From positions 1-64,000 of the forward strand of contig CAMYMU010000025.1 of assembly GCA_947259575.1 (NCBI GenBank): a stretch of 64,000 bases of DNA, read 5' to 3'. Made by a program: the position numbers and the translations under genes. Source of the DNA: an uncultured Ectothiorhodospiraceae bacterium (lineage in GTDB: Bacteria > Pseudomonadota > Gammaproteobacteria > UBA6429 > Thiohalophilaceae). The notes under the pieces were generated by a model. It did not search any database. It saw only the letters and a list, made by a program, of their open reading frames with translations, and was not told where the DNA came from. Of this stretch, positions 9,133 through 48,150 are shown one piece after another (position 1 is the first letter of the stretch; the number at the start of each line of letters is the position of its first letter).

Positions 9133-10065
9133 TTGAGTCAAACTACACCACAGACATTTCAGGATTTAATCCTCAGCCTTCAGCACTATTGGGCTGAAAA
9201 AGGCTGCGTACTGCAACAGCCCTATGACAAGGAAATGGGCGCCGGGACATTCCATCCTGCGACATTTTTGCGCTCGATCGGCCCTGAGCCCTGGTCTGCC
9301 GCCTATGTCCAGCCTTGCCGACGCCCGACAGACGGCCGTTATGGCGAAAATCCGAACCGTTTGCAGCACTATTACCAATTTCAGGTGGTGATCAAGCCAT
9401 CGCCACTGGATATTCAGGAGCTCTATCTGGATTCATTGCGGGTGCTGGGGATTGATCCGCTAGTACACGATATTCGTTTCGTTGAGGATAACTGGGAATC
9501 ACCCACCCTTGGTGCCTGGGGTCTAGGTTGGGAAGTGTGGCTAAATGGTATGGAAGTCACACAGTTTACTTACTTCCAACAGGTTGGCGGTATCGACTGC
9601 AAGCCCGTGACCGGTGAGATCACCTACGGTCTTGAGCGCATCGCGATGTACCTGCAAGCAAAAGAAAGTCTGTTTGATCTGGTCTGGGCCGATGGTCCCC
9701 TTGGACGAGTCACTTATGGCGATGTCTTTCATCAAAATGAAGTGGAACAGTCTACTTATAATTTTGAGAAGGCCAACACCGAACTCTTGTTTGCTGAATT
9801 CGATCAATGTGAATCAGAAAGCACATCATTAATTGAAAACAATTTACCCTTACCTGCCTACGAGCAGGTCATGCGCGCCTCCCATGCTTTTAATTTATTA
9901 GATGCGCGTCATGCAATTTCGGTCACCGAACGACAACATTATATTTTACGCATTCGTAATTTATCCCGCGATGTTGCTAAAGCCTATTATGAAGCTCGCG
10001 AGGCACTGGGTTTTCCTATGTGCGAATCGGTTGCAAAACCAGCGGCTAAAGGAGGCAAGGCATGA
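9133..10065 (+). CDS. glyQ: Glycyl-tRNA synthetase alpha subunit
   Basis: Catalytic subunit of the bacterial alpha2beta2 glycyl-tRNA synthetase; charges tRNA-Gly. 310 residues from the TTG at 9133, chosen because GAGG lies six bases before it; a TTG at 9121 is also in frame. The sequence matches the family through [56 protein letters not shown] and [13 protein letters not shown]. It overlaps glyS by 4 nt (ATGA), so translation is coupled. Confidence 0.96.
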
Positions 10066-12143
10066 GCAAAGTACGTGACTTGCTGATCGAGATTGGCACC
10101 GAAGAGTTACCGCCTAAGGCCTTATTGAAGCTAATTAATGCGTTCAACCAAAATGTCGCTGCTGAGTTACAAAAAGCAGAACTGTCATTTTCTAAAATAG
10201 AACAATTTGCTTCACCGCGCCGCCTTGCCCTGATCATTTCTGATCTTGAAGAGCAACAGGCCGATAAACAAATCGATCGGCGCGGTCCAGCCTTGCAAGC
10301 TGCCTTTGATGAAAATGGTGAGCCGACGCAAGCGGCTTTAGGCTTCGCAAAGTCCTGTGGTATCGATATTAACGAAGTAGAAAAGATTGAAAACGAGAAA
10401 GGCGCCTGGTTATATTTTCAGATCACGCAAAAGGGCCTTGAAACAAAGGACTTAATCGCTGACATCGTCCAAACTGCCTTACACAAACTGCCCATTCCAA
10501 AACGTATGCGCTGGGCAGATCTCGATGCGCAATTTGTTCGCCCTGTACACTGGGCGGTATTGTTGTTTGGTAAAGAACTTATTGATGCCGAAATACTAAG
10601 TGTTACAAGCGGACCACTCACTTATGGCCATCGTTTTCATCACCCGGCTGCAATTAAACTTAAAAGCGCCGCTGATTACACGAGTAAGCTTAATGATAAA
10701 GGCAAAGTTATTGTCGACTTTGAGCAACGTAAACAGACTATCGTTAAACAAATTGAAAAGATTGCGAGTGATAAAAGTGCCAAGGCCGTTATTGATCAGG
10801 ACCTGTTAAACGAAGTGACTTCAATGGTCGAATGGCCCGTCGCAATTTTAGGTAACTTTGAAAAACGCTTTTTAGATGTGCCGCAAGAAGCACTGATATC
10901 GACGATGTCGGCACATCAAAAATATTTTCATTTGATAGACCGGGAAGGAAAATTACTACCGCACTTCATAACCATTGCAAATATCAAGAGCAAGGACATG
11001 CAAAAAGTTATTGAAGGCAACGAGCGTGTTATCCGTCCGCGTTTTTCTGATGCAGAATTTTTCTGGAACCAGGATCGCAAGCACAGCCTGGCTAGTCATG
11101 TTGGGTCAACAAAAACGGTCGTCTTCCAGAAACAAATGGGTAGCCTGCATGACAAGACGGAACGTACCGCACAACTCGCCAGTCGTATCGCCGATCAGAT
11201 TGGCGGAAATCAAAAACAGGCTGCACGGGCTGCATCGTTATCAAAGTGTGATCTGATGAGTGAGATGGTCTACGAGTTCCCGGAACTACAGGGCGTCATG
11301 GGTCGTTACTACGCCACTCACGACAAAGAACCTGCTGAAGTGGCCCAGGCCATTGATGAACACTACATGCCACGTTTTGCCGGCGACGAACTGCCACAAA
11401 GCAAAACGGGCCAGGCCGTCGCCCTTGCCGATCGCCTCGATACTCTATTAGGCATTATCGCTGCGGGCCAAATGCCCACCGGCGACAAAGACCCCTATGG
11501 CCTGCGACGCGCTGCCCTGGGTGTGCTGCGCATCATGATCGAAGAGAATTTATCATTAGATCTCAATGAGTTACTGTCAGAACACGCTTCCAGCCTACCG
11601 GCTGAACTCAACGCTGCTGATGCCGTGGCCAGCACCATCGACTTCATCCTGGAACGACTCAAGACTTATTACTTAAATAAGAATATCAAAGTGGATGTGT
11701 TCGATGCGGTGAAATCTCAGCGTCCTACCCAGCCCAACGATTTCGATGCGCGTATTCAGGCCGTTACCGAATTCCAGTCAGAAGCCGCCGCCACAAGTCT
11801 TGCCGCAGCCAATAAGCGCATCTCTAACATCCTGAAAAAATCAAAGGATGCTGTACCCGATCAAATCGATCCTGCCCTGTTAACCGAAGAAGCTGAGAAC
11901 AAGTTGGCTAACCAGGTACTTGATCTGACTTCACAGGTAACACCTTTGATTGCATCGCGTGATTACACAGCAATATTACGCTTGCTGGCCGCACTTCGTG
12001 ACAACGTCGATACCTTTTTTGATAACGTGATGGTCAATGTAGATGATGACAAGTTACGCCAAAATCGTCTTGCCCTGTTGAACCAGCTTCGAAACTTGTT
12101 TTTAGATGTCGCAGACATCTCTAAGTTACAGGCGCCTAATTAA
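10062..12143 (+). CDS. glyS: Glycyl-tRNA synthetase beta subunit
   Basis: Non-catalytic, tRNA-binding subunit of glycyl-tRNA synthetase, 693 residues, the normal length. Family features are [15 protein letters not shown] at the N terminus, [29 protein letters not shown], and the anticodon-binding C-terminal region. It is translationally coupled to glyQ and followed after 3 nt by the MazG-like gene. Confidence 0.96.
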
Positions 12144-15672: not shown

Positions 15673-18096
<2,424 letters not shown>

Positions 18097-18108
18097 CTAA
18101 GCCCAGCA

Positions 18109-19173
18109 TTATACCACTTCCTGGAAAGAACCATGTTCCACGTGGAACATTTTGCTCCCTTCCCATACAGATACATCAATCAGGTTCGGCTCTGTGGCCG
18201 TTACCATCACCTGGGCCCCCGTCTCTTTCATAGCCTCAATGAGACAGGCCCTTTTTTCCGGATCCAGCTCGGCGGGCAGGTCGTCCACCAGCAAAATACA
18301 GTCCTGGTTCAACCGCTTTAATTGGGCCAGGGTCATGGCGCAGATCAATAACTTTTGCTGCCCCCTCGAAAACACGTTCTGGACCTGTTTGCCTGCTACC
18401 TTGATCTTAATATCCGCCCGATGGGGCCCAAGTCGACTAAAACCACGCTCCATATCATTATCGAGCTTTGCTGCAAGCTGGTCTTTGAGTGAGCCAGCAG
18501 ACTCATCCCAACCAGGCTGATAATCAAAGTTTGGTGCTACCCCAATCAGCTGCTCGCCATATTTCGATAAGATTGGCGCTAGCTCGGACAGATATTGCTG
18601 TCGATAGTAATGGAGCTGTTCCGCCTTCTCGACCATTGGTCCATCCCAGGCCTGAATCTCCTGACGGGATAACTGCCTGCGCAAACAACTGTTACGCTGG
18701 CGCAATATTCGGTGGTATTTCTGCCAGATTTCCAGATAACGATGTTCCACGTGGAACACGCCCCAATCCAGATACTGGCGCCGCATCTTGGGGCCTGAAT
18801 CTAATAGCTCATGGGATTCCGGAGTCAGAACGAATACCGCCACCCTTCCTACCAATTCGGTGGTTTTCGCAATACGCTCGCCATTGATCTTTACCTGGGT
18901 CTTCTTTGCCTCTCTGGAAAGACCAATAATCTGGTTTTCGTTGCCTATTTTCAGCCGGGCCACGACCAACATAGTTTTTGCATCGTGCTTTACGAGTTGG
19001 TCAATCCGCGGAGTTCGAAAGGAACGTCCCTGGCAGGCTAAGGAGATGGCCTCGAGCAGGCTTGTTTTACCACTCGCATTTGGACCAATAATCACGTTGA
19101 GGCCCGAACCAAATTGAACCTGCGCTTGCCCAATATTGCGCAAATTCTCGATATTAATCTGTACGAGTGCCAT
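18109..19173 (-). CDS. recF: DNA replication and repair protein RecF
   Basis: ABC/SMC-like ATPase that helps load RecA at gaps with RecO and RecR. 354 residues. Walker A is GPNASGKTSLLEAI, the signature is NVFSRGQQKLLICAMTLAQ, and Walker B is CILLVDDLPAELD. It lies between dnaN and gyrB as usual. Two perfect 16-bp parS palindromes are embedded in the coding sequence (separate entries), one near each end of the gene. Confidence 0.96.
   Translation of the reverse strand: MALVQINIENLRNIGQAQVQFGSGLNVIIGPNASGKTSLLEAISLACQGRSFRTPRIDQLVKHDAKTMLVVARLKIGNENQIIGLSREAKKTQVKINGERIAKTTELVGRVAVFVLTPESHELLDSGPKMRRQYLDWGVFHVEHRYLEIWQKYHRILRQRNSCLRRQLSRQEIQAWDGPMVEKAEQLHYYRQQYLSELAPILSKYGEQLIGVAPNFDYQPGWDESAGSLKDQLAAKLDNDMERGFSRLGPHRADIKIKVAGKQVQNVFSRGQQKLLICAMTLAQLKRLNQDCILLVDDLPAELDPEKRACLIEAMKETGAQVMVTATEPNLIDVSVWEGSKMFHVEHGSFQEVV
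18134..18149. other. parS: parS centromere site 1
   Basis: Perfect palindrome TGTTCCACGTGGAACA, inside the 3' end of recF. It matches the chromosomal ParB-binding consensus of gammaproteobacteria such as Pseudomonas. Its position near the origin fits chromosome segregation. The parAB genes are not in the window. Confidence 0.85.
18743..18758. other. parS: parS centromere site 2
   Basis: Second exact copy of TGTTCCACGTGGAACA, 609 bp from the first and also inside recF. Two identical 16-bp perfect palindromes in one gene are very unlikely by chance. Together they would nucleate ParB spreading close to oriC. Confidence 0.85.
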
Positions 19174-19202
19174 ACCGGCGCTGGGCCACCTTCGCCTGTG
19201 GG

Positions 19203-20303
19203 CTAGAGCCGCATTGGCATAATGACGTACTTGGAGGCGTCATCGTTCACGCCTTTCACCAGACAGGAATGATTAGAGTCTTTAAGGTGGACCGATACTT
19301 CTTCTGTCTTTATCACAGACAGGGCATCCATAAAATAGCCGATATTAAAGCCGATCTCGAAGCCCTCAGAATCGTAGTTAACCTCGATTTCTTCCTCGGC
19401 TTCCTCCTGTTCTGGATTATTCACGCTGGCGCGGATTAAATTGGGCTCAAGCTGGATGCGCATACCGCGGAATTTCTCATTTGATAATACAGAGATACGG
19501 TTAAAGGCTTGCAACAGCGCATCTCGACTACAGACCAGTTCTTTATCGGGATCTGCGGGAATGACTTGCTGATAATCCGGGAACTTGCCATCAATCAATT
19601 TCGATGTGAATGTCACATGAGAAAGCACCACACGAATATGATTATTGCTGATCTGTATCTCAACAGGATCATCACTGCTCTCAAGCAGTCTTGATAACTC
19701 AATAATACCCTTTCTTGGGATGATCACCTGGCGATCTTCGCTGACACCGGTATCTGCAGCAATACGACAAAATGCCAGACGGTGTCCATCGGTTGCCACG
19801 CAGGTAACGGCGTTGGCGGTTACTTCAAACATCAAGCCATTCAGGTAATAGCGAACATCCTGTTGTGCCATCGCGAATTGAGTTTGATCGAAGAGTTGTT
19901 TTAATTGGGCCTGAGTAAGTTTGAAACTAAGGGCCTCATCTACAGGTTCAATATTTGGAAACTCTGCAGCTGGTAATAATGCCAGGGTAAATCGGCTCCG
20001 GCCTGAACGTATCACAGCACGTTCTTCTTCAATTTGGATTGTAATGTTGGCGCCTTCTGGTAATGACTTGCACAAGTCCATCAGCTTACGCGCAGGCAAA
20101 GTAATATCGCCATCTTCATCTGATTGCACTTCGGCTTTAGCAACCATTTCTACTTCCAGATCTGTGCCGGTTAGTGTCATTTGGTTACCAACAACACTGA
20201 CTAAGGTATTCGCTAAGATTGGAGATTGTTGACGACGTTCTACAACACTACTAACGACTTGAAGAGGTTTTAGTAGGTTTTCCCTAAGTGCTGTGATTTT
20301 CAT
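19203..20303 (-). CDS. dnaN: DNA polymerase III sliding clamp (beta)
   Basis: 366-residue beta clamp that tethers polymerase III to DNA. Three clamp-fold domains are recognisable: MKITALRENLLKPLQVVSSV at the start, YYLNGLMFEVTANAVTCVATDGHRLA in the middle, and the C-terminal YVIMPMRL that lines the clamp-binding groove. It is downstream of dnaA and 29 nt upstream of recF. Confidence 0.97.
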   Translation of the reverse strand: MKITALRENLLKPLQVVSSVVERRQQSPILANTLVSVVGNQMTLTGTDLEVEMVAKAEVQSDEDGDITLPARKLMDLCKSLPEGANITIQIEEERAVIRSGRSRFTLALLPAAEFPNIEPVDEALSFKLTQAQLKQLFDQTQFAMAQQDVRYYLNGLMFEVTANAVTCVATDGHRLAFCRIAADTGVSEDRQVIIPRKGIIELSRLLESSDDPVEIQISNNHIRVVLSHVTFTSKLIDGKFPDYQQVIPADPDKELVCSRDALLQAFNRISVLSNEKFRGMRIQLEPNLIRASVNNPEQEEAEEEIEVNYDSEGFEIGFNIGYFMDALSVIKTEEVSVHLKDSNHSCLVKGVNDDASKYVIMPMRL

Positions 20304-20555
20304 TCGGTTCCTTCTCTTATACTTATTATTTATTTATATTTATTACTGTTATTATTAGGCAGCGGTAAATCTGTGTATAACTGCAATTTTATCTTTTATA
20401 TCAAAAAGTTACTAAAAGTAAAAGCGTCTTCGTAAATGCCCTTGGTTCTCTGTATGGGCTGTGGATAATATGTGTTTAACTAGAGGCAGCAAAGTTAGCC
20501 ACAACATTATTCACAAGCTTTCCACAGACTTTATTGACGTTCCTTACCCCTATTA
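20304..20555. other. oriC: dnaA-dnaN intergenic region, candidate oriC
   Basis: 252 bp without a gene. It has an AT-rich stretch (about 20318-20357) and several DnaA-box-like 9-mers: TGTGTATAA (20372-20380), TGTGGATAA (20460-20468) and TTATTCACA (20507-20515), plus a weaker CTTTCCACA at 20518-20526. The combination resembles an origin unwinding region with DnaA boxes. It also carries the dnaN promoter. The other side of dnaA has only one clear box, so this side is favoured, without proof. Confidence 0.55.
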
Positions 20556-21917
20556 TTAGCTACTTAGCGTTCGCAGTAAATTTGCATAATCTTCGTTGAT
20601 TCTCGAGTTCTCGTCGCGAAGTTCTTTTATCTTACGACAAGCATGTAGCACCGTTGTATGGTCTCGACCACCAAAGGCATCACCAATTTCGGGCAAGCTG
20701 TGGTTGGTCAACTCTTTACATAATGCCATCGCCAGTTGGCGTGGTCGCGCAATAGAACGATTACGACGTTTCGATAATAAATCGGCGACACGGATTTTAT
20801 AATACTCGGCGACCGTCTTTTGAATATTTTCGATGGTAACCAGTTTGTCTTGCAAGGCGAGCAAATCACGCAGAGCTTCTTTAGCAAAATCCAGCGTGAT
20901 CGGTCTGCCGGTGAATTGTGAGTTAGCGATTACTCGCCTCAAAGCGCCCTCAATTTCACGGATGTTGGAACGAATCCGTTTAGCTATAAAAAAGGCAACC
21001 TCATTAGGCAGTTCGACACCCGAGAGTTGGGCCTTGTTCATCAGAATCGCGACACGGGTTTCAAGTTCAGGGGGTTCAATGGCGACGGTTAATCCCCAGC
21101 CGAAACGCGACTTGAGACGTTCTTCCAGGCCGTCGACCTCCTTCGGGTAGCGATCACAGGTCATGATGACCTGTTGCTCACCTTCAAGCAGTGCATTGAA
21201 GGTGTGAAAAAATTCTTCCTGGGAGCGTTCCTTACCGGCAAAGAACTGGATATCGTCGATCAGTAAGGCATCAACAGAGCGGTAGTATCGCTTAAATTCA
21301 TCGATCTTGTTGTGCTGTAGGCCTTTAACCATGTCTGCCACAAAACGCTCGGAATGCAGGTAGACGACTTTGGCCTTGGGTTTGTTTTTGACAATCTCGT
21401 TGCCGACCGCATGCATCAGGTGAGTCTTGCCTAAACCAACACCACCGTAAATGAAAAGTGGGTTGTAAGCACCACCCGGATTGGTTGCGACCTGGCTGGA
21501 GGCTGCCCTGGCCAACTGGTTGGATTTACCTTCGACAAAACTGTCAAAGGTGTAATTGGGATTCAGGCTAACGTTTTTACTATTCTGTGGATTCTGGCCA
21601 GTGCTTGCAGTGGCGACCCCAGGATTTGCTGTCTCGGTTTGGGGCCTGGCTGGCGCTACGCTTTCAGCTTGATGTTCACCAATCTCAACCGTCAGATTTG
21701 GGCGAGGTTGGTGGATATTATCGAGTATTTCGCCGATACGGCTCAAAAAACGTTCGTCTATCCAGTCTTTTACAAATCGGTTGGGGGCTAACAGGCGTAG
21801 TTCGTCATCGTCACCCACTACATGCAGAGGACGGATCCAGGTATTAAATTGCTGAGGAGAAAGTTCTCTCTCCAGGTGAGCAAGACATTGATCCCAAAGC
21901 GCTTGCGACACGCGCAT
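20556..21917 (-). CDS. dnaA: Chromosomal replication initiator DnaA
   Basis: 453-residue AAA+ initiator. Domain I ([25 protein letters not shown]), a short Gln/Pro/Ala-rich domain II near residues 85-125, domain III with Walker [14 protein letters not shown] and Walker [12 protein letters not shown], and domain IV with the DnaA-box-binding signature [15 protein letters not shown]. Divergent from rpmH, as in other gammaproteobacteria. Confidence 0.98.
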
Positions 21918-22046
21918 GACCTCTTGTAAAAATTTGGTTAGATTGAAGGTTCCGCGGCCTGTTTTTTACATATTTGTCGTCTAGCCAGATACGTTTTATT
22001 AAACATTTTTCAACGCGGACGGTGAGTCTACGCCTTCTTTTTAAAG

Positions 22047-22151
22047 TTATCCACAACTTTGCGACTTCTTCGCTAAGCCCCTGTTTGGCCTTGGTTTAAT
22101 GGTTAAAGTCCCAGAATTTATGTTGACAGGACCCCGCCAAGACAGTAATCT
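22047..22151 (+). promoter_or_regulatory. DnaA box and rpmH promoter in the dnaA-rpmH gap
   Basis: The 321-bp dnaA-rpmH gap contains one perfect DnaA box TTATCCACA (22047-22055). A strong sigma70 promoter for rpmH has TTGACA (22123-22128), 17 bp, then TAATCT (22146-22151). The box may serve dnaA autoregulation or belong to the origin. Nothing else was recognised in the gap. Confidence 0.6.
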
Positions 22152-22238
22152 TGCCGCCTTTTCCGCCAGAGCCGACCCCATCTGAATTGGGCACGAATCC
22201 GGTGGACCATTTTAACGAGATAAATAGCGGTAGCGGCC

Positions 22239-22373
22239 ATGAAGAGACCATTTCAGCCAAGTAATATTAAGCGTAAGCGCACCCACGGTTTCCGTGCACG
22301 TATGAGCACACGTGGTGGTCGCAAAGTACTGAATGCCCGGCGCGCAAAAGGCCGTAAACGCCTAAGCGTATAA
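22239..22373 (+). CDS. rpmH: 50S ribosomal protein L34
   Basis: 44 residues, very basic, starting [20 protein letters not shown] and continuing [20 protein letters not shown]: the standard L34. It is the first gene of the rpmH-rnpA-yidD-yidC-mnmE cluster, divergent from dnaA. The promoter is at 22123-22151. Confidence 0.97.
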
Positions 22374-22379
22374 ACAGCC

Positions 22380-22757
22380 ATTGATAGGCAATTACCAGTC
22401 AGCCAGAAAACGGGGCGATTCACTCGGCACCAACGGCTGATTCGGCCAGAACAGTTCAAGCGTGTTTTTACCAAGCCTATTCGTGTGGGCGATGATTATT
22501 TCTCGGTTCTCGGGCAAAATAACAATAAGCCAGTGGCGCGACTTGGTTTAGCGATTGCGCGCAAGCATATAAAAAAAGCCGTCGGTCGAAACCGGATAAA
22601 ACGTTTAACGCGAGAAAGTTTTCGACAAAACCAGCAACTGTTAGCCGGTTTTGATATCGTTGTCACTTTACGCAAAGATGCGAGTCGACTGGATAACGAG
22701 ACGATTCGCCAAAGTTTAACAAAACACTGGCATAGTCTGACTAAGAAAAAACTTTAA
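22380..22757 (+). CDS. rnpA: Ribonuclease P protein component, probable ATT start
   Basis: Protein subunit of RNase P, which matures tRNA 5' ends. The conserved core is clear: RFTRHQRLIRPEQFKRVF, ARLGLAIARKHIKKAVGRNR and IKRLTRESFRQNQQ. The frame has no ATG, GTG or TTG upstream of that first block. The first GTG is at 22485 and would delete about 35 residues including conserved ones. The only sensible initiator is ATT at 22380, six bases after the rpmH stop, giving 125 residues, a normal RnpA length. A CTG at 22437 is a weaker option. ATT starts are rare but known (E. coli infC). Confidence 0.85.
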   Translation: MDRQLPVSQKTGRFTRHQRLIRPEQFKRVFTKPIRVGDDYFSVLGQNNNKPVARLGLAIARKHIKKAVGRNRIKRLTRESFRQNQQLLAGFDIVVTLRKDASRLDNETIRQSLTKHWHSLTKKKL

Positions 22758-24845: not shown

Positions 24846-26243
24846 ATGACAGTGATGACCGTTAACGCTAAGCAACCAGAGACGACAAATTTAGAAACGA
24901 TTGCTGCCCTGGCAACCCCAGTTGGCCGTGGTGGCGTAGGAATCGTCCGTGTTTCAGGTCAACAGGCGGCTAAAATAGCCGAACACATCCTGGGCCGCTG
25001 CCCCCAACCCCGATTGGCAGAATATTTACCCTTTAAAAATGCCGAAGGCGAGGTTATCGACCAGGGCATCGCCCTCTTTTTCAAAGGCCCTCATTCTTTT
25101 ACCGGCGAAGATGTTCTCGAGTTGCAGGGCCATGGCGGACCTGTGGTTATGGATATGCTCCTGCATGCAGTGACCCATTTTGGTGCCAGGCTGGCACGAA
25201 GCGGCGAATTCAGCGAACGGGCCTTTTTGAATGACAAAATGGACCTGACCCAGGCCGAGGCCATCGCCGATTTAATCGATGCCGGTTCTGAACAAGCAGC
25301 CCGGACCGCAATGCGCTCACTGCAAGGTGCGTTTTCGACCGAAGTCCATGATCTGGTCAAGCAAGTGACCGAATTAAGGATTTATGTCGAAGCGGCGATG
25401 GATTTTCCCGAAGAAGAGATTGATTTCATCTCTGAGGGCAAAATCAGCGAAAAAATTGCTGAGCAACAGCAAACCCTGGATTCCATCTTCGAACGCGCAG
25501 CACAGGGGAGTTTGATTCGGGAAGGGATAAATCTGGTACTAGTCGGCCGGCCTAATGCAGGTAAGTCCTCACTACTGAATGCCCTGGCCCAGCGGGAAGC
25601 GGCGATTGTCACAGATGTGCCAGGCACAACCCGGGATATCGTCAAAGAAGTCATTATGCTCGATGGCCTGCCGGTGCATTTGCTGGATACGGCCGGATTG
25701 CGTGAAACGGAAGATGTGGTCGAAAAAGAAGGCATGCGGCGTACCTGGGATGCCATTTCACAGGCCGATGTGATGATCCTCCTCATCGATGATACCGATG
25801 GGTTTAGCAGTATTGAGCAGGATATTATTGATCAGTGCCCGGATTCGGTGTCGATTGTCATTCTATTCAATAAATGCGATCAGTCTGGCCAGGCGCCAGG
25901 GGTGCTGACCGAACTTGATCCGGATTTGGCAAAACATACCAGCCTGGCAATTTCTGCCAAAACCGGGGCTGGCGTGGATGAGTTGATAAGTTGTATCAAA
26001 CAACTGGCGGGGATGCAGGCAACGGGCGAAGGTGCTTACATGGCCCGCCGCCGACATCTGCTAGAGTTAACTAACGCACAATCCCATTTGGAACTGGCAC
26101 AACAACAGGCCCAGCAAAATGAGGGTGAGCTGATTGCCGAGGAACTGAAACTGGTGCAGCAGGCATTAGGTCAGATTACCGGTGAAGTCACCAGCGATGA
26201 CCTGTTGGGAAAAATCTTCAGCGAATTTTGTATCGGTAAATAG
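24846..26243 (+). CDS. mnmE: tRNA modification GTPase MnmE
   Basis: 465 residues. The N-terminal folate-binding domain has ETIAALATPVGRGGVGIVRV. The G domain within the helical domain shows GRPNAGKSSLLNAL (G1), DVPGTTRDIV (G2), DTAGLRE (G3) and NKCD (G4). The C terminus is FCIGK, whose Cys is typical. With MnmG it modifies the wobble uridine of several tRNAs. mnmG does not follow here, unlike in some relatives. Confidence 0.97.
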   Translation: MTVMTVNAKQPETTNLETIAALATPVGRGGVGIVRVSGQQAAKIAEHILGRCPQPRLAEYLPFKNAEGEVIDQGIALFFKGPHSFTGEDVLELQGHGGPVVMDMLLHAVTHFGARLARSGEFSERAFLNDKMDLTQAEAIADLIDAGSEQAARTAMRSLQGAFSTEVHDLVKQVTELRIYVEAAMDFPEEEIDFISEGKISEKIAEQQQTLDSIFERAAQGSLIREGINLVLVGRPNAGKSSLLNALAQREAAIVTDVPGTTRDIVKEVIMLDGLPVHLLDTAGLRETEDVVEKEGMRRTWDAISQADVMILLIDDTDGFSSIEQDIIDQCPDSVSIVILFNKCDQSGQAPGVLTELDPDLAKHTSLAISAKTGAGVDELISCIKQLAGMQATGEGAYMARRRHLLELTNAQSHLELAQQQAQQNEGELIAEELKLVQQALGQITGEVTSDDLLGKIFSEFCIGK

Positions 26244-26252
26244 CTAAATATT

Positions 26253-27359
26253 ATGGTGAGTTCTCAATTACAGTTTAAGCTCATTTTCGTGTTTTCACTA
26301 TTAGTGCTGCTTCCAGCTTGCTCAACGCTTAGCTATTACGGCCAGGCAATTTCGGGTCATATGGATTTAATCTCTAAACAGCGTCCGATCGAAGATGTCA
26401 TTGAAGACAAAACCGCAGCAACGACATTAAAGCAAAAACTGATTTTATCCTTGCGCGCAAGACAATTTGCCACGCAAGAGCTGCATTTACCCGATAACGA
26501 AAGTTATTCGCAATATGCTGATCTTGAACGTCCCTATGTTGTCTGGAATGTGGTTGCTACCCCGCCTTATTCAATCAAACCCCAAGAGTGGTGTTATTTA
26601 TTTGTTGGCTGTCTAAGTTACCGTGGTGTGTTTGATAAAACCGAAGCGGAACAACTTGCCGCTGAACTCAGGCAGGCAGGACAGGATGTCTCAGTGTTTG
26701 GTAGCGCAGCCTATTCGACCTTGGGTTATTTTGATGACCCGCTATTAAACACAATGATGCGTCACGGCGATGCAAATTTAATTGGTGTGATTTTCCATGA
26801 GCTCGCTCATCAAACGGTGTATGTTGAAAGCGATACCGCCTTTAATGAAGCCTTTGCCTCTACGGTCGAACAAGAAGGCCTGCGTCGCTGGTTTAATAAA
26901 GTGGGTAATCCCGACGAATATGAAAAATATTTGCAAAAGAAACAATTGCGCCATGAATTTTATGCGTTGATTACACGCACCCGAGAAGCATTGGAAAATG
27001 CTTTCGAGATATCAGAGCCAGAAAAAGAAAAGCAGCGGCAAAAGACGGCAATCTATAATGCCTTCAAGCAGGAATATAAAACCTGGAGTGAGAGCCGTGG
27101 ATATCATGCCTTTGATAACTGGATGCAAAGGGATCTCAATAACTCACACCTGGCCTTGATTGCCACTTACCAGGACCTGGTTCCAACGTTTATTAATATG
27201 CTTGACTCAGTAGACGGTGATTTAAAAAAGTTTTATGAAATGGTCGAGACAATTGGTGAAAAAGATAAAGAAACACGTGAGACACTTTTAGCCTTGTATA
27301 AAGGCATAAAAACGACATCACGTGAGAATGTAAATTACGACACCCTAAGCAAGAAGTAG
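26253..27359 (+). CDS. Putative lipoprotein metallopeptidase (COG4324 type)
   Basis: 368 residues. The signal peptide ends in a lipobox-like VLLPACSTL, so an envelope lipoprotein is likely. Zinc-protease motif HELAHQ with a downstream Glu in FNEAFAS, as in the predicted aminopeptidase family COG4324. The next region is helical and charged. It starts 9 nt after mnmE and may be co-transcribed. The substrate is unknown. Confidence 0.85.
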   Translation: MVSSQLQFKLIFVFSLLVLLPACSTLSYYGQAISGHMDLISKQRPIEDVIEDKTAATTLKQKLILSLRARQFATQELHLPDNESYSQYADLERPYVVWNVVATPPYSIKPQEWCYLFVGCLSYRGVFDKTEAEQLAAELRQAGQDVSVFGSAAYSTLGYFDDPLLNTMMRHGDANLIGVIFHELAHQTVYVESDTAFNEAFASTVEQEGLRRWFNKVGNPDEYEKYLQKKQLRHEFYALITRTREALENAFEISEPEKEKQRQKTAIYNAFKQEYKTWSESRGYHAFDNWMQRDLNNSHLALIATYQDLVPTFINMLDSVDGDLKKFYEMVETIGEKDKETRETLLALYKGIKTTSRENVNYDTLSKK

Positions 27360-27372
27360 TGAGATCAATACA

Positions 27373-27912
27373 ATGGCTAATCCTTTACAAGAGCAACTTA
27401 TTAAAGCTGGTTTAGCCAGCAAACAGCAAGTACACAATGCTAAAAAAGATAAGAACAAACAGAAAAAACAACAGGGCTCTAAAAAGCTAAAAGTAGATGA
27501 GACTAAACTAAAGGCACAACAGGCGGCAAAAGAAAAAGCCGAGCGTGATCGTGAACTCAATAAGCGAAAAGAAGAGGAGGCGCGAAAAAAAGCAATCTCC
27601 GCCGAGATTAATGATCTTATTATTAAAAATGCATTAAAACGCAGTGACGATTATGAAATAGCTTATAACTTCGAACACCGAGGTAAAGTAAAGCGAATAT
27701 ATATAAATGAAGAATTAAAGCAGAGAATTATAAATGGTGAGTTAGGTATCGCACGCATAGAGGGTCGCTATGAACTGGTGCCGAAACTGATAGCAGAGAA
27801 GATACAACAAAGAAACGAAAAGCGAATAGTGTTATTCACAGAAGAAGAAAAGCGCGAAGATGAAAATGACCCTTATGCTGAGTTCAAGATCCCCGATGAT
27901 TTGACCTGGTAA
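27373..27912 (+). CDS. DUF2058 family protein (YaiL-like)
   Basis: 179 residues, cytosolic. Starts NPLQEQLIKAGLASKQQV, then a highly charged Lys/Gln-rich coiled-coil region (residues 25-75), then a C-terminal domain with YNFEHRGKVKRIYI. This matches the nucleoprotein/polynucleotide-associated family that includes E. coli YaiL. Function is unsettled. Confidence 0.85.
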   Translation: MANPLQEQLIKAGLASKQQVHNAKKDKNKQKKQQGSKKLKVDETKLKAQQAAKEKAERDRELNKRKEEEARKKAISAEINDLIIKNALKRSDDYEIAYNFEHRGKVKRIYINEELKQRIINGELGIARIEGRYELVPKLIAEKIQQRNEKRIVLFTEEEKREDENDPYAEFKIPDDLTW

Positions 27913-27916
27913 GCGA

Positions 27917-28189
27917 CTACTTCATGTAATCAACAATACCGTGCCATAGTCGTCCAATAACGGTTGCGCAGAAATTTTCTAACATGAAAAACCCTGATAG
28001 CGCCATTATCCCTGTAAAAATATAAACTAATTTGAAAGAAGAAAATATATAAGCCCCTTCGAAAGAAAAGGCGGCCACGATCAAAAACCATATAACAAGC
28101 CCGGTAAAGAAACTAATTAAGGCAGATAAGAATGCAACAGCAATTCTATCTGTAAGCGTAACTTTTTCTTGTTTGCTGATGATGGATAC
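27917..28189 (-). pseudogene. Small membrane ORF without a canonical start
   Basis: A 90-codon open frame on the minus strand with two to three hydrophobic helices, such as LISFFTGLVIWFLIVAAFSF and LVYIFTGIMALSGFF, ending DYMK. The coding character is good. The only ATGs are deep inside the frame; no ATG or GTG is found at the 5' end, where a GTA codon occupies the expected start. It is either a gene that lost its start or one using a rare initiator. It lies 8 nt after the YCII-like gene. Family unknown. Confidence 0.4.
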
Positions 28190-40560: not shown

Positions 40561-41634
40561 TTAACTCATGGCGGCAACGATGGCGAGCTCGCCGCGTTTA
40601 ACAGAATCGACATCGAATTTTTTCGCGGCACTGGCCATGCGCGTTAGTGCAGACTTGATTGGCATCGCCGGTCCGGTCTCACCTTTCTTGGCGCGGTGAA
40701 AACGCACGGGGTTTATGCGGGCGACCACATAGGTGCGTAGGTAAGGTGACTTGAAGCCCTTCTTCTGTAGCTTATCAATAATCTTTTTAACTTGTACGTC
40801 GATCTCTATTAAACGTGCAGCATAGTCTTCACGCTGACGGAGGCTAACCGGTAAGCTGCGGTCACTGAAGCGATCGACCTTTTTCAAAAAGGATGTATAG
40901 GCACCACCGGCAAACCGTTTGTTTTGTTCGTAGATGATTCCCAGGGTGAGAAACTCGGCAGCCTCAAAATGCTCAGCAAAGCTGGATTCTTTGGTGCGTG
41001 GCCGGGTTTCGGCGAGATTTCGGGCCATACGGATGACCTCGAGACTACGGTCCTTAACGTTATGAGCCTTTTCCGTATTCAGGGCAAGAATTCTGTATGC
41101 GAGTGCCTCATCAGGCGAGATCAGTGCGGTAATTTGTTGTAATCCAAGGACTTTTGCCGCGGCGAGGCGATGTCGGCCATTGGGGGTCCAGAGCCTGCCG
41201 TCTTCACCCAGGACTACAATCAGGGGATCAAGGAAGGAACCTGCCTCATCAATTTTCTCTGCCAGGCGTTTAGTGTGGGTCGGCGATAAGTCCCGTTGAA
41301 AAGGCGTGGGTTGTACGGCCTTGAGCGGAATCGAGGCAATCAAGACCGGTTTGCCGGATAACGGTTCGGCATAAGCACCGATGGCCGCCCCGCCCACGGC
41401 CTTGATCTCTTCTACCAGGGGCGCCAGGGCGCGATCATCCAGGCCGAGTACGATTTCAGAGGCCTTTAAACCACGCTTGGTTTTTGCCGGGGCGAGCTTA
41501 CCAACTTTTTTCTTTTTGGCCTTTTTCTTTTTAGCCGGTTTCTTGCGAGCGGTTTTATTTTTTGCAGCAGCCTTCTTTTTGCTCGCTGCCGTTTTCCTTA
41601 CCGTCTTCTTCTGGGCTTTTTTCTTTGCAGCCAT
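40561..41634 (-). CDS. ParB-domain protein with histone-H1-like N terminus
   Basis: 357 residues. The first 50 are a Lys/Ala-rich tail of the KKPAKKKKAKKKK type, like histone H1 or bacterial Hc1-like tails. Residues about 95-190 form a ParB/Srx nuclease-fold domain: VQPTPFQRDLSPTHTKRLAE, then LWTPNGRHRLAAAKVLG, which holds the ParB-box-like GRHR. The C-terminal part is helical and ends with RGELAIVAAMS. This is not the canonical segregation ParB, which has a different linker and dimer domain. It likely binds DNA or RNA nonspecifically; function unknown. Confidence 0.7.
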   Translation of the reverse strand: MAAKKKAQKKTVRKTAASKKKAAAKNKTARKKPAKKKKAKKKKVGKLAPAKTKRGLKASEIVLGLDDRALAPLVEEIKAVGGAAIGAYAEPLSGKPVLIASIPLKAVQPTPFQRDLSPTHTKRLAEKIDEAGSFLDPLIVVLGEDGRLWTPNGRHRLAAAKVLGLQQITALISPDEALAYRILALNTEKAHNVKDRSLEVIRMARNLAETRPRTKESSFAEHFEAAEFLTLGIIYEQNKRFAGGAYTSFLKKVDRFSDRSLPVSLRQREDYAARLIEIDVQVKKIIDKLQKKGFKSPYLRTYVVARINPVRFHRAKKGETGPAMPIKSALTRMASAAKKFDVDSVKRGELAIVAAMS

Positions 41635-45177: not shown

Positions 45178-48066
45178 CTAAGGTTCCAGGGCCTGCTTAT
45201 TGACATTGAGTTCATGTTTGCGAAGTGTCTGTAGTGCCTGGGCATATTCAATTTCATTTTCTTGTTCGACAGACTGAATCAATAAATCAAATCCATCCAC
45301 TGAACTGTAGACACTGGGATACATATTCATCAGATAGTAGCCTTCATTGCCAAAATCATGTTTGAGTAATTGTTTCGTCAACTTGATGCGCGCAGTTGTA
45401 CTTGTGTTCTCAAATTCCATAATAGAACTCATGGCACGCAAGCCGGCGATTTTATTTTTCCTGGCAATTAAATCAGAGCCAAGCTCGAGTATGGCGTCTG
45501 CTTGATGATCGGAATAGCCACCATAAAAACGTCCGTAACCACGGTAGTAATTATGATAAATACTACGATCAAGCTGCAGAGGTTTATGTTCGATCGCCGC
45601 TTTTGTTGCCAAATGAGACAAGTTTAATTCGGCCAGGTAATGACCGGGTAATCGACAGACGGAGTAATCAGTCATGTATTGCGCGATGGTTTCGAGTTGA
45701 TTACTCGCTATAGGCGGCAATGTATACTCAAAACGCGTTTCCTTGGGTGGGGTTAAGTTTGCAATCACCTCAGCAACGGGTTGTTGTATTACCTGTTGGG
45801 CGTAATTGACATGATTATTGATCTTGAACCGATCATAGTCCTTTTGTGTTTCCAGCATTAATAGCGATACGGTTTGACGTGGAATACGAAAGTGTGTTGC
45901 ATAGATTAAGGCTAAATCTGTATGGTCATCTGAATAGTCCTCAAGTTTTCGCACCACCGCTTCGGCATAGATCCTGGGTGCCAATGGTGTGTTGATTTTG
46001 GTCTGTGGTACTTGAACTTGTAGGTTGCGGGTTTGCTCGCCATTTTCCAATGTTAATTCGATGGCTTGTTGGGGTTTACCGCGGCCGACGATTGTAAGTT
46101 CCTGATTGTTATAGGCATAAAAACTGGCATTGGCGAGAAATATATCATCAGCATCCTCTGCCTGTGCTGTCAGTACACGCCAGTTTGTCGTACGGTGAGC
46201 GTAAACGATGGGATCAGTGGCCAGTGCTTTTTGGTTAGCATGGATGGGTAAGTCAAATACTGCACCGTAAGTCTCATGGCTGAGTAAATCGAGCAGGTCT
46301 CGGTCTGTGTTGGTACGTTGATTTACGTAGGCAAACAGACGACCGATATGGTCAGATTGTTTTAGCGCATTGACCAGTGACTGTGGTCGGGTATCGCCCC
46401 AGGTTGCCCTACCATCAGTTAGTAAAAATACATCCCACTGCGTTGCAGGATCGACTTCCTGTTCCTTCAGCCAATGCGGGTTGGCAACTTCTCTCAAGGC
46501 ACGATGTAAATCTGTTGCGCCTGCCAGGTTAATCCTGCTGATGGAGTTTTTTAACGCGTTACGACTTTTTTCAGTATTTCTAACAAAATACGGTAGCCAC
46601 CAGTGGGTGCCGACATCGAAGTAAAGTACAGCAAAATGTTTTATGTCATCTTGATTGGCTTCTAACAATGCGTGTAATAAGTTCACCTGTTCTGAAAAAT
46701 TATTACCATAAGAGGTAGCCGATGTATCAAGCGCGAACACGGCATGTGAACGGCTGTTCTCGGCAAAGCTGGACGGTAAAGATAGTTTGTGTTTAAAGGC
46801 AAAGTAGTTGCCGGTTTCTTTGTCGTTACCATATAGCATCCGCTCATGGGTGTTAGTGAATTGAAATTTAATTTCTTCTCCCTTGCCCGGCTTAAACTGG
46901 TAAAGTCGCGGCTTGCCACGGCTGACGAGAACAGGATTGGCACTTAGGTGATTCATTAGATCCGCGGTTTTGTCATCTATATGTACATAGACGTCGGTTG
47001 GCACATCATTAGCAGGTGCCTTGAAAAGATATTCGAGTTTTCCATTTACTATTGGCAGCTCCATATCATAAGCCAGCACAACACGATGCATTGCATAAGC
47101 TTGTAATGGAAAGACGTTCACCGAGTAGATACCATTGCCTTGCCATTCGACCAGCGCCGGGTCTCTTCGATTGCCGACGATGGTTTGATAAGCATCGCGT
47201 GCCTGCTTTCGTGGCACCATCACGGCTTCTTTTAATTTTGCTTGATGCTGATAGCGATCGAAGCTTAGTTCTTTTTTTGTAAAGCCTGATGTTTCACTCG
47301 GTAGGTGTTGAAAGGATTCTTCTTTATTCATATAGACAACATCGCCGAAGGCGACATAATAAGGCGTCGCTGACTCTGGCAGGCGTAATTGAAAGCGTCC
47401 TTCATTCTGTCTTTTGAAAGGATTGTAAAACTCCATGTTAAGCATAACCCGTGCGCGAAAACCGTTTATTTTTACATCCGTGCGCATCGACTTAAGCTCA
47501 AGCCGACGGTTATTGTTTGTGATCAGGCGTGTTGCGTTATAGGGCAGTGTTGATTTAACCCAGGTACGTGTATGTTGGTTAATGGCATCAGACGGTGTAG
47601 AGGCATCGGCAATCGGTGGAGCAGAGTAGCCACTACCTCCCCCGCAGCCTCCCATTGTGACCTTACTTGTATGTGATGCGTGAACAAACTCACCTGTATT
47701 TAAGGTTGCAAGGGCAAATATTTTGTCGGTCTTGTTTAGCTTGATCCGTGTTTTATAGAAATTAACTGGACGATGAAATTCCATGGTCTGAATGGGACGA
47801 AAACCCATGTGACAGACAAACAATTGAAGTTTTTTCACATACAACGACTCGCTATCGAGTCCAAACATATCAACGTTGACACTGACCACGGCGCCATTTT
47901 CGGCGATGTCGGGTGCTCGAATCGTAATTCCATAGTGTCGATTAGTAGCCTGTGCGGAGGCAAATAAGCTTGTTTCGGTGTGTGCGTGAAGGTGCGTCTG
48001 GGTGATGCTGAGTAATGTAACTGTTAAAACGAAACTGATTAGGCTGGTGGTGTATCCTGGCTTCAT
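45178..48066 (-). CDS. VIT and von Willebrand A domain exported protein
   Basis: 962 residues from the ATG at 48066, which follows GGGAGAGACGAC; a longer start is at 48099. The signal peptide contains FVLTVTLLSITQTHLHA. A VIT (inter-alpha-trypsin) domain follows, with VMLNMEFYNPFKRQNEGRF and EAVMVPRKQARDAYQTIVG. A vWA domain shows the metal site DTSATS and FLLTDGRATWGDTRPQSL. The C-terminal 250 residues are helical. A glycine-rich GGCGGGSGYS lies near residue 150. VIT-vWA proteins often act in the envelope or in ATPase-linked systems; no partner is nearby. A 12-bp palindrome TGTTTATAAACA lies upstream (48084-48095). Confidence 0.85.
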   Translation of the reverse strand: MKPGYTTSLISFVLTVTLLSITQTHLHAHTETSLFASAQATNRHYGITIRAPDIAENGAVVSVNVDMFGLDSESLYVKKLQLFVCHMGFRPIQTMEFHRPVNFYKTRIKLNKTDKIFALATLNTGEFVHASHTSKVTMGGCGGGSGYSAPPIADASTPSDAINQHTRTWVKSTLPYNATRLITNNNRRLELKSMRTDVKINGFRARVMLNMEFYNPFKRQNEGRFQLRLPESATPYYVAFGDVVYMNKEESFQHLPSETSGFTKKELSFDRYQHQAKLKEAVMVPRKQARDAYQTIVGNRRDPALVEWQGNGIYSVNVFPLQAYAMHRVVLAYDMELPIVNGKLEYLFKAPANDVPTDVYVHIDDKTADLMNHLSANPVLVSRGKPRLYQFKPGKGEEIKFQFTNTHERMLYGNDKETGNYFAFKHKLSLPSSFAENSRSHAVFALDTSATSYGNNFSEQVNLLHALLEANQDDIKHFAVLYFDVGTHWWLPYFVRNTEKSRNALKNSISRINLAGATDLHRALREVANPHWLKEQEVDPATQWDVFLLTDGRATWGDTRPQSLVNALKQSDHIGRLFAYVNQRTNTDRDLLDLLSHETYGAVFDLPIHANQKALATDPIVYAHRTTNWRVLTAQAEDADDIFLANASFYAYNNQELTIVGRGKPQQAIELTLENGEQTRNLQVQVPQTKINTPLAPRIYAEAVVRKLEDYSDDHTDLALIYATHFRIPRQTVSLLMLETQKDYDRFKINNHVNYAQQVIQQPVAEVIANLTPPKETRFEYTLPPIASNQLETIAQYMTDYSVCRLPGHYLAELNLSHLATKAAIEHKPLQLDRSIYHNYYRGYGRFYGGYSDHQADAILELGSDLIARKNKIAGLRAMSSIMEFENTSTTARIKLTKQLLKHDFGNEGYYLMNMYPSVYSSVDGFDLLIQSVEQENEIEYAQALQTLRKHELNVNKQALEP

Positions 48067-48150
48067 GTCGTCTCTCCCCTTTGTGTTTATAAACAACACA
48101 TCGCAAGAGCTGTGCCAAGGGCATTAGTGCTATGTAATCAATGAGTTAGT

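Follow-up and report, generated by a model that had tools for sequence, protein, structure and literature searches.

Two identical 16-bp palindromes inside a single recF gene, which encodes a DNA-repair protein, very probably function as parS in a chromosomal ParABS system. They are the only such sites of this genome as represented by its draft assembly, they would place the chromosome's centromere within recF, and the second of them would form a composite with the −10 element of the predicted gyrB promoter. Judging from the sequence features described below, the bacterium most likely segregates its copied chromosomes by means of these two sites.

Two parS palindromes in recF near the predicted origin

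The window, by which we mean the whole 64-kb stretch of DNA that was analyzed, carries the minus-strand gene order dnaA, dnaN, recF, and gyrB (Table 1). The sequence TGTTCCACGTGGAACA is found there twice, both times exactly, at a separation of 609 bp and within the one recF open reading frame, just as the first-pass annotation had stated for two perfect palindromes in this gene. No further stretch with three or fewer mismatches to TGTTCCACGTGGAACA exists in the window. Shuffled versions of the window gave a mean of 0.29 matches at this threshold, and two or more matches arose in 5 of 100 shuffles. The two palindromes share one codon frame and are translated as V-FHV-EH (residues 139 to 144) and M-FHV-EH (residues 342 to 347).

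The AT-rich gap between dnaA and dnaN is likely part of oriC. Of the five exact DnaA-box matches in the window, three lie in this gap (20372 to 20515), and since the total is near the 3.27 expected window-wide, the clustering alone is suggestive. The parS pair is origin proximal, lying 1.5 to 2.4 kb from this gap.

Table 1. Coordinates of the parS sites and the surrounding features in the window
Feature	Coordinates	Strand	Description
gyrB	15673..18081	minus	802-aa ORF; name assigned by sequence and by gene order (dnaA-dnaN-recF-gyrB)
Extended −10 element	18108..18116	minus	TGGTATAAT; overlaps the recF stop codon; predicted gyrB promoter
recF	18109..19173	minus	354-aa ORF, host of both parS sites; TIGR00611, 352 bits (cut-off 172)
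parS site 2	18134..18149	none	Perfect palindrome TGTTCCACGTGGAACA; recF codons 342-347 (M FHV EH)
parS site 1	18743..18758	none	Perfect palindrome TGTTCCACGTGGAACA; recF codons 139-144 (V FHV EH)
dnaN	19203..20303	minus	
AT-rich dnaA-dnaN gap	20304..20555		Exact DnaA-box matches at 20372, 20460, and 20507
dnaA	20556..21917	minus	

Partition genes and parS count in the same genome

The genome to which the window belongs is a 3.45-Mb draft in 70 contigs (95.85% complete). A genome-wide parS search, which had been proposed as a check in the first-pass annotation, returned the recF pair as the only exact copies of TGTTCCACGTGGAACA in this draft. Genome-wide, there are zero copies with one mismatch and three places with two mismatches, none of which retains CACGTG. 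At three mismatches, 15 places in total compare with 10 for the reversed control, which is near background. The degenerate pattern TGTTYCACGTGRAACA again matches the recF pair alone genome-wide (control, 0). Because the genome is a draft, further parS sites may be missing from it.

One ParB protein, encoded on contig C2, scores above the family cut-off (TIGR00180, 198.9 bits). This model by itself is not specific to chromosomal ParB; the protein also matches the solved structure of Caulobacter ParB (6t1f) with an E value of 1.5e-54. The neighbors of parB on this contig are a ParA-family ORF and an rsmG-like ORF. The best NCBIfam model for the ParA ORF reaches 115 bits, under its cut-off of 180, and its name therefore rests on family likeness and position. 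SMC is encoded at full length (1125 bits). Both the 16-bp palindrome and the cognate ParB and ParA expected of a chromosomal ParABS system are present in the genome.

The window itself also contains an mnmE-like ORF (24846-26243), after which the sequence does not continue with mnmG-rsmG-parA-parB (24846-28000), rsmG-parA-parB being on the other contig. In another genome of the same genus (G003), parAB and recF share a single contig and are about 92 kb apart. A lysine-rich protein encoded at 40561-41634 has a weak, sub-cut-off match to a ParB domain (TIGR00180, 19 bits) and is not the chromosomal ParB.

Distribution of the sites among relatives

Presence in close relatives had been named beforehand as a check on the parS reading, and the sites are there. 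In a sample of 25 genomes of the window's family, its own included, exact parS sites occur in 20, and in 16 of these 20 every exact site falls within recF; counted by site, 35 of 41 are in this gene. The reversed control produced 0 matches in the 25 genomes. One genome (G010) has five exact sites within 1.8 kb (contig C47, 17315-19043), two of them in recF. Two others (G016 and G018) each have one additional exact site outside recF, and the sole exact site of G022 is elsewhere than in recF. On contig C86 of G022, a second ParB (9514-10338, 53% identical) is encoded about 3.4 kb from an exact parS (6062), and the two possibly belong to a plasmid or second replicon. Among the five family genomes lacking an exact site, G013 is one mismatch short of parS at each of the two places, the RecF search gave no match in G002, G005, and G007, and G001 has a partial RecF.

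We searched 40 genomes in total, in which RecF was matched in 34 and not in six; four of the 34 yielded no locus (G001 with its partial RecF, G027, G030, and G032). A ParB search succeeded in 39 of these 40 genomes; it gave no match in G011 and just a fragment in G007. A set of 30 loci (L017-L046) comprises the window's own and 29 from relatives in the family and class. Both places are occupied, with two or fewer mismatches, in 29 of these 30 loci, the exception (L045) lacking site 1, and the site-to-site spacing in the 29 is 606 to 636 bp. Extra parS-like palindromes are found just past recF site 2 in L045 (near 2587) and L038 (near 2586), with one and two mismatches, respectively.

A further 80 named loci are the best 80 of 539 confirmed stretches fetched by peptide patterns, one of which contains the FHV of site 1. 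Such a fetch is biased toward amino acids but unbiased for codons. With the 30 loci above, they make up a motif table of 110 loci. Within the best 80 of 539, taxa carrying both sites exactly include Pseudomonas saliphila, Halopseudomonas, Haliea, Pseudoalteromonas, Pseudidiomarina, and Oceanospirillum. The table also provides a wider set of 73 recF genes from outside Vibrionaceae, Shewanella, and the enterobacteria, 21 family genes included; drawn from the best 80 of 539 plus the 30, this set has two exact sites in 41 genes, one in 24, and none in 8.

Retention and loss of the sites with ParB

For 50 of the named loci (from the best 80 of 539), the genomes were searched for both ParB and parS, and two of these 50 genomes had a single match to the reversed control each. 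The 12 enterobacterial genomes among them all lack a strong ParB (weak matches in 5 of 12, best 74 bits), contain zero exact parS sites, and have FHV at neither RecF place. Chromosomal par genes are also absent from Escherichia coli K-12. The other 38 genomes of the 50 all encode ParB at 236 bits or more, and 36 of them have exact parS sites. For 15 of the 19 ParB genomes in this sample that are from neither Vibrionaceae nor Shewanella, the exact sites in recF account for the genome total.

The sites are thus conserved at the DNA level with ParB and lost without it, except that Vibrionaceae and Shewanella have lost the recF sites despite having ParB. All 19 tested genomes of these groups (of the 50) encode ParB and 17 have exact parS, but none of their 25 recF genes (from the best 80 of 539) contains an exact site, and 23 of the 25 have three or more mismatches at site 1. 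At site 2, FHV[EK] is kept in 21 of the 25 genes (from the best 80 of 539) and reads CATGTG, the His codon being CAT in 21 of 21, which shows that the protein sequence is possible without parS. In the same 21 genes, Val is GTG in 21 of 21 and the E/K codon ends in AA in 20 of 21 (e.g., L054-L057, L062, L066, L068, L071, and L075). Site 2 of these groups may be a parS broken by one base and otherwise fixed, as a weak site, for another function, or by inertia.

A sample of 274 gammaproteobacterial genomes was examined in the same regard. The site-1 motif is present in 133 of 256 ParB-positive versus 3 of 18 ParB-negative genomes (Fisher p = 0.006), where ParB negative means no match at an E value of 1e-30, the sample is of related genomes, and absence from a draft is not proof. 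This class-wide association between ParB and the motif has the expected direction and appears to be of moderate strength. The three motif-bearing ParB-negative genomes may reflect assembly gaps or a divergent ParB.

parS site 2 and a predicted gyrB promoter

The recF gene of the window ends with GAA-GTG-GTA-TAA-T, which contains TGGTATAAT (18116-18108), and the gyrB ATG starts 27 nt past the last base of this element. TGGTATAAT is likely the −10 of a gyrB promoter whose transcription start we infer to be near 18101. In the 110 loci (the best 80 of 539 plus 30), TGNTAYAMT stands 33 bases from the first parS base in 35, and in 19 of the 21 family loci. One locus with the composite is from Halothiobacillus (L106). 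When only the 72 loci with intact CACGTG are considered (again from the best 80 of 539 plus 30), TGNTAYAAT is found at offset 33 in 33 loci and at another offset once, with 0.005 occurrences expected at offset 33 from mononucleotide shuffles. A gyrB start follows the element in 33 of the 35 loci that have it (median distance from the parS start, 69 bases), and in six of the 35 the recF stop codon has moved downstream while the −10 is kept (all from the best 80 of 539 plus 30). The element is absent at offset 33 in the Pseudomonas, Vibrionaceae, Shewanella, and enterobacterial loci among the best 80 of 539.

This spacing was also evaluated in the 274 genomes by searching for TGNTAYAAT at 4 to 26 bases after the Gly codon that follows site 2. 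Matches were obtained in 71 genomes, one in each, with 0 for the reversed control. The gap is exactly 14 bases in 69 of the 71, which fall in 48 families; the exceptions are 15 bases in G161 and 22 in G345. A site-1 match 621 to 651 bases upstream on the same strand locates 52 of the 71 in recF, whereas the remaining 19 are not placed in recF by this test.

The fixed-distance element expected of a ParB-regulated gyrB promoter is therefore present, whereas a canonical −35 is not. Specifically, the consensus of the 35 loci (from the best 80 of 539 plus 30) has no −35 hexamer, and ACANGG (by majority base) occupies the position corresponding to a 17-base spacer. A sigma-70 scan of 18000-22600 returned five promoter-like sites against a shuffled mean of 6.2; its requirement for a −35 leaves the extended −10 unlisted. 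If transcription starts about 7 nt after the −10, as assumed here, then parS site 2 would be centered near −41 of the gyrB promoter. This is the position of class II activators at other promoters. ParB could activate the promoter, which lacks a −35, or it could block it.

We tentatively propose that site 2 and the gyrB promoter are a conserved composite through which ParB directly controls gyrB and couples gyrase supply to partition in many gammaproteobacterial families, a proposal that is clearly likelier to fail than to hold. A rival account, in which site 2 is mainly an operator, is in our view unlikely, if well short of far-fetched. According to this account, gyrase supply would track the state of the centromere through activation or repression of gyrB by ParB near −41, and segregation would proceed via site 1 or both sites. 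It gains from the 14-base gap where 4 to 26 bases were allowed, from the excess of the element at offset 33, from the missing −35 hexamer, and from the −10 elements that outlast a moved stop codon. In addition, excess ParB reduces gyrB in Pseudomonas aeruginosa, as stated in the available portions of one report (PMC5521831). Yet site 2 occurs without this −10 in 37 of the 72 core loci, including P. aeruginosa PA7, and it carries mismatches (one or two) at 13 of the 35 loci that have the promoter element versus 1 of 37 core loci that lack it (both from the best 80 of 539 plus 30). That report also describes no detectable effect of native ParB on the genes beside parS1 and parS2 (PMC5521831), in a species whose strain PA7 lacks this −10. 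The fixed gap could also reflect old elements and rare indels in the short RecF tail, and possibly the two are simply ancient neighbors in such a stretch.

Codon choice at the sites exceeds the needs of the protein

The conservation of synonymous positions in relatives had been suggested as another check, and it was tested here. In family recF genes, FHV[EK] is written CAC-GTG-RAA in 21 of 21 at each site. In the wider set of 73 genes (from the best 80 of 539 plus 30), this is true of 64 of 65 genes at site 1 and 72 of 72 at site 2, after exclusion of the genes without FHV[EK] (8 of 73 and 1 of 73, respectively). The remainder of the same genes uses CAC for His at a frequency of 0.42 to 0.45, GTG for Val at 0.31 to 0.34, and GAA for Glu at 0.52 to 0.58.

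A codon-neutral pattern, D-W-[GA]-x-F-H-V-[EK], was then applied to the 274 gammaproteobacterial genomes, giving 137 matches, which are spread over 136 genomes; the other 138 had none. Fully 133 of the 137 are written CAC-GTG-(G/A)AA, where about 10 are expected, and the parS-disrupting synonymous forms number 4 of 137. A Val before the F is encoded by GTG in 83 of 83 cases. This pattern ignores the end bases of the 16-mer, and the codon before the F does not end in TG in 4 of 137.

A scan that was not guided by the sites led to the same codons. Among 104 conserved degenerate columns in the 21 family recF genes, one codon accounts for at least 97% of the sequences at only six, residues 141-143 and 344-346, which are the two parS sites. 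With the 73 genes (from the best 80 of 539 plus 30) and 74 columns, this threshold is reached at 142, 344, 345, and 346 only, columns 141 (66 of 70) and 143 (60 of 63) being below it. Formal binomial p-values come out too low because the genomes are related, and the argument is instead the contrast within the same genes.

These contrasts indicate that selection on DNA fixes CAC-GTG-(G/A)AA beyond the needs of the protein. Some RecF residues, above all V142, even seem to be dictated by the DNA site. In recF genes with three or more mismatches at site 1, V142 is kept in 2 of 43, the others having S, N, A, T, H, R, I, C, Q, or L. The first-pass annotation had held that the protein tolerates the palindrome twice; both copies are indeed encoded in frame, but tolerance understates the relationship if V142 is set by the DNA.

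It is very improbable that RecF itself requires Phe-His-Val-Glu-His twice and that its codon choice produced the palindrome incidentally. Both motifs are at conserved RecF positions, and all 12 enterobacterial recF genes, which have no parS, still encode the F and H of motif 1 (from the best 80 of 539), but the synonymous codons are fixed far above usage and V142 is rarely kept once site 1 has decayed. We rejected this protein-only reading on the scarcity of parS-breaking synonymous changes in the class sample. Similarly rejected, and scarcely credible, is an RNA hairpin acting as an attenuator or terminator between recF and gyrB in place of a DNA site: the transcribed palindrome could fold, and site 2 is among the 9 terminator-like elements that a consensus scan reported for this stretch (4.5 expected), but the would-be loop (ACGT) varies no more than the arms do, the other copy is mid-gene, pair-breaking mixed forms (TTC with AAA) exist, e.g., in L026 and L027, although none is among the class 137, and T is only slightly enriched in the tail past site 2 (GGTTCTTTCC).

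The original suggestion for these palindromes, that they are under selection as ParB-binding sites close to the origin, is the best reading, given a pair unique in the draft genome, the codon fixation, and the loss in enterobacteria that lack a strong ParB.

Proposed partition mechanism

From the sites, their codon constraint, the genes for ParB, a ParA-family protein, and SMC, and the fixed spacing, we propose how ParB binding, segregation, SMC loading, and promoter activity might be connected. ParB dimers, produced from the gene beside rsmG and parA on contig C2, would load on both sites and then spread across dnaA-dnaN-recF-gyrB. The ParB-DNA complex would be the handle by which ParA separates newly copied origins, and the ParB-bound region would be a loading platform for SMC. 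Selection on the 16 bp of DNA would fix the codons CAC-GTG-(G/A)AA and, in part, RecF residues. Site 2 would double as a composite with the extended −10 over the recF stop codon, at about −41 from the likely gyrB start.

With this arrangement, a coding sequence would serve as the chromosome centromere in many gammaproteobacterial lineages, its codons and probably some residues being set by partition, which would account for the retention of FHVEH at two RecF positions. The constant spacing between parS and the gyrB promoter raises the question of whether a centromere protein sets gyrase supply, and this composite is the part most deserving of work.

Other features of the window

An integron integrase is encoded at 385-1371 (TIGR02249, 481 bits), near the start of contig C25, and a cassette array might extend beyond the contig end. 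The N-terminal part of a 973-aa protein (45178-48099) resembles SoxY (TIGR04488, 72 bits; cut-off 125), and the protein also matches a VIT-domain protein weakly (46 bits; cut-off 250), which is an unusual combination.

Comparison with known systems

The core arrangement of parS sites in recF is already known. According to the available text of two reports, P. aeruginosa has parS1 and parS2 within recF (PMC5521831, PMC3909081), and its parS sites closest to oriC are in this gene (PMC3909081). An excerpt of a third gives parS1 as TGTTCCACGTGGAACC and parS2 as TGTTCCACGTGGAACA (PMC4368675), and we find these same sequences at site 1 and site 2, respectively, of recF in P. aeruginosa PA7 (L084). 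The two sites therefore occupy the same two recF places in both organisms. As given in that excerpt, parS2 is identical letter for letter to site 2 of the window, whereas the last base of parS1 differs from site 1. It further states that any one of parS1 to parS4 is enough for segregation, that a strain with only parS2 has no par defect, and that the intragenic parS sites have been altered with the amino acids unchanged (PMC4368675).

Other differences concern the number of sites and their surroundings. P. aeruginosa is described in the same excerpt as also having parS3, parS4, and six weaker sites (PMC4368675), whereas none was found in the draft here. Its parAB genes would be about 11 kb from recF, a distance inferred from 7 kb to one side of oriC and about 4 kb to the other, whereas parAB is on a separate contig here. 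The extended −10 past site 2 is absent in P. aeruginosa PA7. The chromosomal parS sites of Vibrionaceae and Shewanella have the same consensus and a ParB, but exact parS is lacking in recF (25 genes; from the best 80 of 539).

One study of Caulobacter describes a region spanning recF and gyrB as a hot spot at which inserted parS sites are tolerated (PMC5815017). A gyrB promoter is located at the recF-gyrB junction in this organism, and the text of the source paper contains no mention of parS, CACGTG, a palindrome, or an inverted repeat. A literature search that covered few subscription journals yielded no description of parS in recF outside Pseudomonas and none of a composite of parS with the gyrB promoter. 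The homologous sites of P. aeruginosa make the window a further, well-supported case of a known arrangement, in which the recF pair is apparently the sole centromere.
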